From Prochlorococcus sp. AG-402-K21 (GTDB lineage Bacteria; Cyanobacteriota; Cyanobacteriia; PCC-6307; Cyanobiaceae), in NCBI GenBank assembly GCA_003216775.1, contig QCII01000006.1, forward strand, positions 1 through 64,000: 64,000 nucleotides of DNA, written 5' to 3'. The translations under genes and the position numbers were made by a program. Positions 8,970 through 45,477 of this stretch are shown piece after piece. The notes under the pieces were generated by a model. It worked only from the letters and a program-made list of their open reading frames with translations. It had not been told where the DNA came from and ran no database searches. Positions within the stretch are counted from its first letter, which is position 1; every line of letters starts with the position of its first letter.

Positions 8970-9036
8970 CTGCCTTCTAATACATTAAGAAGCTTTTACA
9001 AAGGGTCTGTAATCTGGCAAAATATCTAATCGCGTA

Positions 9037-9056
9037 GGTCTGAAAAATATCAGACC
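9037..9056 (+). other. Intercistronic hairpin between subunits a and c
   Basis: GGTCTGA (9037-9043) and TCAGACC (9050-9056) form a perfect 7-bp stem with a six-base A-rich loop, in the 165-base gap ahead of the c-subunit gene. No run of T follows, so it is not a typical terminator. Such hairpins can mark RNA processing or stabilise the downstream message, which suits the high c-subunit stoichiometry. That role is inferred. Confidence 0.55.
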
Positions 9057-9116
9057 CATTCTTAAATTAAAGGATGTCCAAGCGTGTATGACAAAAAGAT
9101 TTATCACAAGTATTAA

Positions 9117-39871: not shown

Positions 39872-40530
39872 CAGTTTAAGAAATGAAATATCTTCTTTAA
39901 GTGGAAGATTAACAACCTCATCTTTATTTGCAATAGAGATAATTAACCAACTTAACTCAAATAAATTATTTAAATGTCAAGATAGCTATAAATTTAAATA
40001 TTTAAACCTAAAAAAAACTTTTGATTGAATTAGATGGAACTTCTATAGATATAAATGATTCCCCATAATGAGATTCGGTTGATCTTATTAGTAACCAGTA
40101 AAAGAAATTTACTAAAGCTTTTTCCACGAGGATTTAGTAACTAGTTTAAATAACCCCATAATTTTTGTAATAGCAATATACAAACTAAATTTATTAAGCA
40201 ATCAAGATATTTATCTCATAAAGCATAGATTCATTTTTATTTAGAAAAATTTGTAATCTCAGGCTTTAGGCAGCGGATTAAATCCTCTTGGAGTATTGGA
40301 CTTTAGCCCGCTCTATTTTTTAGAAAAAGAAAAATGGCACTGCAAGGGAGCTTTATTCCTAATTGCGGTTGATTCTGCATTAGCCTTTAATTATTAATTA
40401 GATCAAGATTATCTGGGTATATATTTTGGTGTTATTTATTGTATAAATATGCTACAAAACTATCGTTATATCAATAGATTCGGTATTTTTGCTCATTGAT
40501 ATATTCATTCTTAGAATAATATTATTATTG
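39872..40530. other. 659-base region without a convincing gene
   Basis: Both strands are broken by stops, apart from a frame at 40452-40661 (minus) that shadows the plus-strand peptide gene. One GC-richer patch at 40261-40321 is listed separately. A loose direct repeat (TTAGTAAC...TTAGTAAC) lies at about 40090 and 40135. I see nothing else here. Confidence 0.5.
40261..40321 (+). ncRNA. Possible structured RNA ending in a T-run
   Basis: This is a GC-richer stretch in very AT-rich DNA. AGCGG (40272-40276) is complementary to CCGCT (40308-40312), and the second arm is followed by CTATTTTTT. The interior could fold further (ATCC/GGAT is not present, so only the outer stem is clear). It is a weak candidate for a small RNA or an orphan terminator. 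Confidence 0.3.
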
Positions 40531-40647
40531 ATGCCGAAAGAAGGTTTAATTTTGAAAAAAATAACTAAATTTTTTAAACTATTTAAGAGAAGAATTGATA
40601 TTCTCAATGCAGAGGCTGAATTAAAATTTATCTTGGAAAATAAATAA
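40531..40647 (+). CDS. Small basic peptide, 38 aa
   Basis: Starts MPKEGLILKKITKFFKLF and ends LKFILENK, an amphipathic basic helix. Its stop overlaps the next start by one base (TAATG), which supports both frames as genes. The family is unknown. Confidence 0.5.
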   Translation: MPKEGLILKKITKFFKLFKRRIDILNAEAELKFILENK

Positions 40648-40793
40648 TGGGATTCCCACATTGCCCAATTTGTGTAGTGCTAGCATTTTTTTCAGTTTTT
40701 CTAGGAGTTACTCGTAGTTATATGTTTTTTATTCTTTTTAGGGAGTACGTGAAAGCAGAATCTAATTTTAAATTTAAGCTTAGTTTTTATTAA
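40647..40793 (+). CDS. Small membrane peptide with CxxC, 48 aa
   Basis: Starts MGFPHCPICVVLAFFSVFLG. HCPIC is directly followed by a membrane helix, and the tail (REYVKAESNFKFKLSFY) is basic. It is coupled to the preceding peptide gene by TAATG. The CxxC next to the membrane suggests redox or metal binding, as inference. It ends four bases before the strong promoter at 40797. Confidence 0.55.
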   Translation: MGFPHCPICVVLAFFSVFLGVTRSYMFFILFREYVKAESNFKFKLSFY

Positions 40794-40796
40794 TTA

Positions 40797-40825
40797 TTGA
40801 CATCTAAGTATAAATACTTTATAAA
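40797..40825 (+). promoter_or_regulatory. Near-consensus sigma-70 promoter
   Basis: TTGACA (40797-40802), a spacer of exactly 17 bases, and TATAAA (40820-40825). This is the best sigma-70 promoter sequence I noticed in the window. It would start a transcript near 40832, with a leader of about 98 bases ahead of the ATG at 40930. Confidence 0.75.
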
Positions 40826-40830
40826 TAAAT

Positions 40831-40929
40831 TGTAGTGAATACTACATAATCGTCCGATCTACTATTTGATAGACCGCAGTACGACTCAAGCCATAGGACG
40901 GGGACTTGAGCAAGTCTAGGAGCTGCATC
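40831..40929 (+). promoter_or_regulatory. Structured 5' leader, possible pseudoknot
   Basis: Unusually GC-rich for its surroundings. Hairpin 1 is TGTAGT-GAAT-ACTACA (40831-40846). CGTCC (40851-40855) pairs with GGACG (40896-40900), and CTCAAG (40885-40890) with CTTGAG (40905-40910). These last two cross, so they form a pseudoknot if both exist. GACTTG/CAAGTC (40903-40916) offers a competing pairing next to the AGGAG ribosome site (40918-40922). The layout resembles a riboswitch or protein-binding leader, but matches no class I know. Confidence 0.5.
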
Positions 40930-41031
40930 ATGGTAAACATGTATTTTAATGGAAAGTCATTCGTATATTGTAAAAAACAAGAAGAAAAGATGATAAAGCT
41001 TACTTATAGAGGATCTATTTACTTGAAATAA
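40930..41031 (+). CDS. Small protein with DUF4278-like YRG motif, 33 aa
   Basis: Starts MVNMYFNGKSFVYCKK and ends MIKLTYRGSIYLK; the LTYRGxxY motif resembles the core of DUF4278 proteins, a small cyanobacterial family of unknown function. An AGGAG site lies seven bases before the ATG. It is driven by a near-consensus promoter through a structured leader, so high or tightly controlled expression is likely. The family match is tentative because the motif is short. Confidence 0.6.
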   Translation: MVNMYFNGKSFVYCKKQEEKMIKLTYRGSIYLK

Positions 41032-41222
41032 GATTTCTAATTTCTTTTTAAAAACTTTTGGAAATCCATTTAAGTTTTTTAACTCAGTATTTATTAATAC
41101 GTTATAAGAAAAACTTATTGTGAATATATTTTTTGCCTATTTAAAAATTTATATATTCGTATATATAGTAACGAGAAATTAATTTAGAAATAACTATTTT
41201 GTAATTAGATTTTTAAAAGGTT

Positions 41223-41350
41223 ATGCAACCTATTTCTGAAGAACTTTATAAAAAAATAGTTGAGAGTTCTAAAAAATGAATAAGTTACTAATTGCTTTAT
41301 TAGCTTTAGATATAGGAGTTAGTCTTTCTAAAGTTTTTATTTTTACCTGA
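41223..41350 (+). CDS. Two overlapping mini-frames (18 and 24 aa)
   Basis: MQPISEELYKKIVESSKK (41223-41279) overlaps by four bases (ATGA) a second frame starting MNKLLIALLALDIGVSLSK (41276-41350), which is hydrophobic. The overlap and hydrophobic character hint at real peptides, but lengths this short can arise by chance. Confidence 0.3.
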
Positions 41351-41430
41351 AAATCAAATTACTTATCAAAAAATAAGTAATTGTTTTCTAATAAAAGAAA
41401 TAGTTACTAAGTATTCTTTATTTGATGTAT

Positions 41431-45274: not shown

Positions 45275-45420
45275 TTAGCAATTAAATAAATTTATGTCAT
45301 TATTTTTTTGACTTTGAGATTTTATTTGAAAGGTAAAATAATACTTGGTTGTTAATTTGATTGCTTTAAAAATGAAAGAGCCTGCAAGTATCCCACCAAC
45401 AAGCTCATGACGATCCAGTT
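45275..45420 (-). pseudogene. Decayed small membrane protein gene
   Basis: Minus strand: one frame gives NWIVMSLLVG, and the next frame continues GGILAGSFIFKAIKLTTKYYF, which together read as one hydrophobic peptide. The shift is near 45393-45400, and no ATG opens the first part. It is a probable relic. I cannot name the parent family. Confidence 0.4.
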
Positions 45421-45477
45421 AATTTAAATTGTCTGAAATTAACCAGCTAAGCACTTCCTAAATGCTGCAATAATTCT

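Follow-up and report, generated by a model that had tools for sequence, protein, structure and literature searches.

A conserved Glutamine-II riboswitch leader and an NtcA-type palindrome precede a 33-amino-acid YRG peptide at a Prochlorococcus locus that fits yfr6

We found that positions 40797–41031 of the window (the whole 64,000-nt stretch of DNA that was analyzed) form a genuine, conserved regulatory unit that belongs to a known class and agrees with a transcript already described. With a probability of roughly 0.9, we regard it as the yfr6 locus: a short mRNA in which a Glutamine-II (type 2) leader would activate translation of a 33-amino-acid YRG protein in response to glutamine, and whose promoter is probably repressed by NtcA. 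Class membership, conservation, the coding frame, and an operator-like motif at fixed spacing were observed in our analysis, while glutamine binding, activation (from a Prochlorococcus member of the class), and a decrease in Yfr6 RNA upon nitrogen depletion come from the literature.

The first-pass annotation had described a promoter, a 98-base leader richer in GC than its surroundings, several complementarities, an AGGAG ribosome site, and a 33-amino-acid frame, and we confirmed that each of these is present in the sequence. The −35 element (TTGACA, 40797–40802) and the −10 element (TATAAA, 40820–40825) are separated by a 17-nt spacer and are kept in 69/71 and 60/71 aligned rows, respectively (the 71-row set retains 85 of 89 named loci, the dropped ones being loci that run off their ends). 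A scan for consensus promoters required T at the last position of the −10 element, which is why this promoter is absent from its list. The leader spans 40832–40929 (98 nt), and the GC content at 40850–40949 is 45%, compared to 17–35% in the other overlapping 100-base steps of 40300–41399. The frame starts with the ATG at 40930 and ends with the stop codon at 41029–41031. The features of the unit are as follows.

40797–40825, + strand: promoter TTGACA-N17-TATAAA, seen in the sequence and conserved in aligned rows
40832–40845, + strand: GTAGTGAATACTAC, a GTA-N8-TAC palindrome, putative NtcA-type operator that is also capable of forming a 5-bp RNA hairpin; conserved, with fixed spacing
40848–40910, + strand: Glutamine-II riboswitch aptamer (RF01704), scoring 59.7 bits (gathering score, 33) over model positions 1–60 of 60
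40851–40855, + strand: 5′ arm of the pseudoknot PK (CGTCC), pairing with 40896–40900; 5/5 pairs in 105/106 rows
40858–40873, + strand: P1 stem-loop; 4/4 pairs in 106/106 rows
40875–40877, + strand: CGC strand, placed by comparing the Rfam alignment with the structure of PMC6698751
40876–40880, + strand: GCAGU, candidate off-state arm predicted by the MFE fold to pair with 40922–40926
40885–40890, + strand: 5′ arm of P2 (CTCAAG), pairing with 40905–40910; 6/6 pairs in 104/106 rows
40896–40900, + strand: 3′ arm of PK (GGACG), pairing with 40851–40855
40905–40910, + strand: 3′ arm of P2 (CTTGAG), pairing with 40885–40890
40918–40922, + strand: ribosome-binding site AGGAG, seen in the sequence
40922–40926, + strand: GCUGC, candidate off-state partner predicted by the MFE fold, sharing base 40922 with the ribosome site
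40930–41031, + strand: 33-amino-acid frame MVNMYFNGKSFVYCKKQEEKMIKLTYRGSIYLK, stop included, a Yfr6-type YRG peptide by pN/pS and length conservation

A search with Infernal against Rfam 15 matched 40848–40910 to RF01704 (59.7 bits, with a gathering score of 33 and an E value of 6.5e-12 over the 64-kb window), the Glutamine-II family formerly named "Downstream-peptide," which is the type 2 glutamine riboswitch (Rfam RF01704). On the strength of this match we assign the stretch to the known Glutamine-II class. The window copy shares with the family P1, PK, P2, the CGC strand, and a location within the 5′ leader that precedes a short frame, the aptamer ending at 40910 and the peptide ATG lying at 40930. 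The base of P1 has an A/C opposition (40857/40874), and there is no departure from the family definition. In this class, the crossing pairings CGTCC/GGACG and CTCAAG/CTTGAG noticed in the first-pass annotation are the helices known as PK and P2. Its proposal of a riboswitch or regulatory leader therefore stands, while its view that the leader does not match the glutamine riboswitch gives way to the full-length match. The fold and binding site of Glutamine-II have been solved by crystallography (PMC6698751), and selective binding of L-glutamine has been reported for members of the class (PMC6698751; PMC6316151). In the crystal structure, G18 makes a base triple and C19, as C19:G41, closes the pseudoknot helix (PMC6698751). 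Comparing the alignment with this structure, we map CGC 40875–40877 to C17-G18-C19 and C19:G41 to C40877:G40901.

The Rfam E value of 6.5e-12, together with matches to the DNA at 40780–41031 in 188/266 genomes of the genus (E ≤ 1e-8; 72/87 among the more complete ones), places the stretch beyond chance. The peptide was matched in 194/266 of these genomes (E ≤ 0.01; 71/87 among the more complete ones). At least one RF01704 copy was present in 99/101 genomes drawn from the genus and in 30/30 of the drawn genus genomes that are ≥90% complete and ≤5% contaminated, and none was found in 14 control genomes. The window's own genome (1.64 Mb in 20 contigs) carries four copies, all above the cut-off; the three outside the window are called C7, C11, and C12 here after their contigs. 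A 19-base leader pattern occurred in 118 stretches, and the 80 whose titles were listed are nearly all Prochlorococcus or uncultured Synechococcaceae; among these titled matches is Prochlorococcus marinus MIT 9302, whose leader is row L154. Numbers of loci are not numbers of genomes, one place being able to carry several locus ids. One genome (G039) has two yfr6-like copies approximately 16 kb apart on its contig C1 (L104 and L124; 88% and 85% identity to the window), and several other genomes likewise have two matches to the window DNA. A contig titled as a Crocinitomicaceae MAG carries a yfr6 leader (L149) with 95% identity to the window across 93 nt, which is probably a binning error.

To follow the pairings across the genus we used an alignment (A1) of 106 distinct leaders representing 206 locus hits; left out were sequences with a query start >12, an end <92, or an overrun of the locus edge. 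For 62 of the rows, the records had been selected with a pattern in which the 3′ arms of PK and P2 are fixed (some of these sequences also occur in whole-genome loci). The other 44 rows, the window included, came from whole-genome searches that did not use this pattern, which makes them the fairer test of those arms, although they are still a chosen set of best matches and genomes selected for divergence. All pairs were present for P1 in 44/44 pattern-free rows (106/106 overall), for PK in 43/44 (105/106), and for P2 in 42/44 (104/106), and the equivalent of C19:G41, C40877:G40901, was present in 44/44 (106/106). Over 21 pairs, the first hairpin included, 99.5% of cells were paired, compared to 29.5–40.4% with a slid partner. 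P1 and PK show hardly any variation in the 106 leaders, so this set neither proves nor disproves PK by covariation. The survival of P1, PK, and P2 throughout the 106 leaders, in an established riboswitch class, bears out the earlier claim of a pseudoknotted cis-regulatory leader of the 33-amino-acid frame.

The same annotation had proposed that the leader switches through a rival pairing beside the ribosome site, GACTTG (40903–40908) with CAAGTC (40911–40916), for which five of six pairs are possible with two bases between the arms. We rejected this helix as the switch: all five pairs are available in only 22/44 pattern-free rows and 56/106 overall, and no change on both sides was found in the 106 leaders. 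Arm-breaking changes without compensation, which the annotation had named as the observation that would count against it, occur in this rival helix only. An unclassified or new riboswitch whose crossing stems switch through GACTTG/CAAGTC is thus a reading to which we give almost no credence, for although all of its pairings exist in the window sequence, its rival helix is incomplete in much of the set and the full-length RF01704 match above the gathering score led us to reject a new RNA class.

A different candidate for the off-state came from MFE folding without the pseudoknot, which pairs GCAGU (40876–40880) with GCUGC (40922–40926) at the end of AGGAG. These arms are kept in 43/44 pattern-free rows and 103/106 overall, with no joint change in the 106 rows. 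In this predicted fold AGGA (40918–40921) is almost unpaired (0.00–0.12), only the last G of AGGAG is paired, and a CAUG-GUAAA-CAUG hairpin sequesters the start codon. The pairing would use bases that we map to G18 and C19, which are needed for the ligand, so the two states would be mutually exclusive. Compared with shuffled sequences, GCAGU/GCUGC did not beat chance in the window copy (p = 0.14). A common off-state rule for the four copies of the genome (16 nt beginning with CGCA versus the last 18 nt up to the ATG) was unsupported and was set aside (p = 0.14, 0.31, 0.34, and 0.31; combined 0.22). With the pseudoknot bases reserved, the computed openness of the final 16 nt up to the ATG was no higher in the window copy, going from 0.67 to 0.59 at 22 °C and from 0.66 to 0.65 at 37 °C. 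At 22 °C it went from 0.83 to 0.95 in C7, from 0.45 to 0.46 in C12, and from 0.54 to 0.83 in C11. GCAGU/GCUGC would be the best candidate for the off-state, an assignment that we make tentatively and with more doubt than confidence.

Upstream of the aptamer, 40832–40845 reads GTA-N8-TAC, which we take to be the NtcA consensus; the arms of the first hairpin, GTAGT and ACTAC, occupy 40832–40836 and 40841–40845 within it. The motif is present in 44/44 pattern-free rows and 105/106 overall. It lies 19 nt before the aptamer in 32/33 RF01704 loci, including three of the four copies in the window's own genome, although 29 of the 33 loci are the best-scoring family matches, all encoding the same peptide type as the C7 copy, and so are not independent. 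GTA-N8-TAC alone is unspecific, since the 64-kb window contains 13 such sites where approximately 7 are expected by chance (4/100 shuffles reach 13). Here it lies near the expected transcription start, as in an NtcA-repressed promoter: if transcription starts at G40832, the center of the palindrome is at approximately +7. An ntcA gene is present in the genome. NtcA bound near the transcription start is held to repress gifA, gifB, and pirA (PMC8092223); the sites of those genes lie upstream of the start, at approximately −33.5 (PMC8092223), as opposed to approximately +7 in the window copy.

What the first-pass annotation had called a perfect first hairpin is present as a pairing, and an operator rivals a reading of the palindrome as a hairpin only. 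On that reading, the palindrome would be just a hairpin at the 5′ end of the riboswitch RNA, without serving as an NtcA operator. The innermost pair (palindrome positions 5/10) speaks for it: of the 106 rows, 55 have U-A, 26 have U-G, 17 have C-G, and 8 have no pair there. In 17 rows both positions are changed, an observation that an RNA hairpin would also explain. The two inner pairs are broken in 8/106 rows, however, and GTA-N8-TAC survives in 7 of these 8; moreover, according to the review PMC6316151, the promoter of PMM1846, a sister riboswitch gene, contains an NtcA motif. We therefore consider a hairpin without an operator possible, yet clearly the less probable account. Judged from its sequence, an NtcA operator, which NtcA would bind, appears to account for the first palindrome no less well than an RNA hairpin does, and the palindrome may be both. 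A fixed GTA-N8-TAC on the expected yfr6 start was not found stated in the excerpts of the Yfr6 literature used here, and we do not claim that the observation is unpublished.

The anatomy of the unit is that of Yfr6, which was described in 2005 in Prochlorococcus MED4 and SS120 by Axmann et al. (PMC1242208). That paper places it at complement(627729..627972) in MED4 and at complement(923780..924018) in SS120. Its RNA starts at a mapped G after a TATA element, measures 244 nt in MED4, and contains a conserved 33-amino-acid frame from nt 97; the RNA has a half-life of about 2 minutes and is lower upon nitrogen depletion and high light (PMC1242208). Weinberg et al. (2010) identified the leaders of yfr6 frames as Downstream-peptide RNAs, with transcription starting approximately 20 nt before the motif (PMC2864571). 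The window unit has the same TATA element (TATAAA, 40820–40825), a leader of about the 97 nt of Yfr6, the 33-amino-acid frame, and the motif in the leader. The fitting first G after the TATA element is G40832, which puts the ATG at nt 99, and by analogy with Yfr6 we infer that transcription starts at this G. By its anatomy and the published description, the window locus fits yfr6. Rfam also matched an ATPC RNA motif at 8995–9086 (+ strand, 99.7 bits) and Yfr20 at 45379–45467 (− strand, 72.7 bits) in the window. Yfr20 is approximately 4.4 kb from the riboswitch unit, whereas Yfr20 and Yfr6 are approximately 700 kb apart in MED4 by published coordinates; MED4 Yfr20 is a high-light-responsive RNA of genomic island 5 (PMC2518516).

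Steglich et al. (2008) reported an antisense RNA, Yfr14, found the 33-amino-acid frame to be widespread among Prochlorococcus strains, and suggested a possible toxin–antitoxin role for Yfr6/Yfr14 (PMC2518516). Yfr6 could accordingly be a bifunctional regulatory RNA or an antisense-controlled toxin–antitoxin system, in which the leader is structural for the RNA regulator and the peptide is the toxin. That proposal draws on Yfr14 and the suggestion made for MED4, and also on the high conservation of Yfr6 homologues over the complete RNA, including downstream of the peptide (PMC2518516). Our alignment differs from the latter statement: mean identity over the 71 rows is 0.94 in the aptamer and 0.91 in the frame but 0.64 in the stretch after the stop, which favors an mRNA. 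Because the leader is, in addition, a glutamine aptamer of the family that precedes DUF4278 genes, we judge a toxin or regulatory RNA very improbable and prefer the reading of yfr6 as a riboswitch-controlled mRNA.

The frame at 40930 is coding, as judged from its pattern of substitution. We obtained a pN/pS (the ratio of mean uncorrected proportions) of 0.18 over 4788 orthologue pairs from 100 distinct full-length frames, and minor-letter counts at codon positions 1, 2, and 3 were 78, 204, and 435. The product is exactly 33 amino acids in 186/192 loci, with one locus giving 21 and five giving 34, 36, or 37. Before the coding test, 16 loci outside the ribosome-site-and-frame pattern were dropped (192 kept); two of them, L074 and L091, have intact 33-amino-acid matches, so being dropped is not evidence of a broken frame. 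Outside the genus, the peptide was matched in 2/59 genomes drawn from other genera of the family.

No family was found for the window peptide in Pfam (0 families at E up to 10) or NCBIfam, and it does not reach the Pfam score for DUF4278 (PF14105; >25.3 bits). Two PHROGs families, both without a known function, came up at E 0.049 and 0.075, and we do not count these hits as recognition. The riboswitch paralogues C7 (33 amino acids) and C12 (57 amino acids) of the same genome have two and three YRG-type repeats, respectively, and both pass as DUF4278 (33.3 and 42.9 bits). A profile comparison of the window peptide with these two paralogues aligned 29 columns (probability 73.9, E 2.8e-5), which suggests that it is a probable diverged relative of the DUF4278 paralogues while not a member by the Pfam test. 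Type 2 glutamine riboswitches are linked with DUF4278 genes (PMC6316151). With the PMM1846- or gifB-type genes (DUF4278 behind glutamine riboswitches, IF17) the window unit shares the riboswitch leader, the NtcA-type motif, and a YRG small protein; it differs in that its 33-amino-acid peptide falls below Pfam DUF4278 detection. The fourth Glutamine-II copy of the genome (L004, C11:46178–46240, − strand) precedes a 53-amino-acid frame without YRG repeats and is without the GTA-N8-TAC palindrome; 52 residues of that frame were searched against Pfam, with no match. Glutamine riboswitches have been reported in phages. A phage origin of the window copy had no support from our searches of phages: the peptide had no match in the phage collection, and the DNA had only 26–33-nt matches, which came from two Sulfolobus phage records and one Staphylococcus phage record.

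According to a review (Bolay et al., 2018), glutamine binding to a type 2 glutamine riboswitch from a Prochlorococcus strain switches expression on (PMC6316151). We infer that the window copy would behave in the same way, that a competing pairing would form its off-state, that NtcA would bind the palindrome, and that the peptide would act in nitrogen metabolism. With nitrogen in good supply, glutamine would fix the PK pseudoknot and the adjacent CGC strand, favoring translation of the small protein; at low glutamine, a competing pairing near the ribosome site would reduce translation. Under nitrogen limitation, NtcA at the GTA-N8-TAC on the transcription start probably represses the same promoter, so both controls would point the same way. 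By analogy with the known members, the likely function of the leader is that glutamine switches on translation of a nitrogen-status small protein. A more specific proposal, which we offer as a speculation and consider improbable, is a two-input gate for nitrogen sufficiency: NtcA would leave the start site (at low 2-oxoglutarate) and glutamine would open the leader, releasing a minimal two-repeat YRG peptide as a picocyanobacterial stand-in for glutamine synthetase inactivating factors, with GCAGU/GCUGC as the off-state acting via G18/C19.

Together, a leader that had been flagged as possibly new is a catalogued riboswitch that fits a transcript described in 2005. The fixed layout of operator, aptamer, and ribosome site makes this unit a clear test case for nitrogen control in Prochlorococcus.
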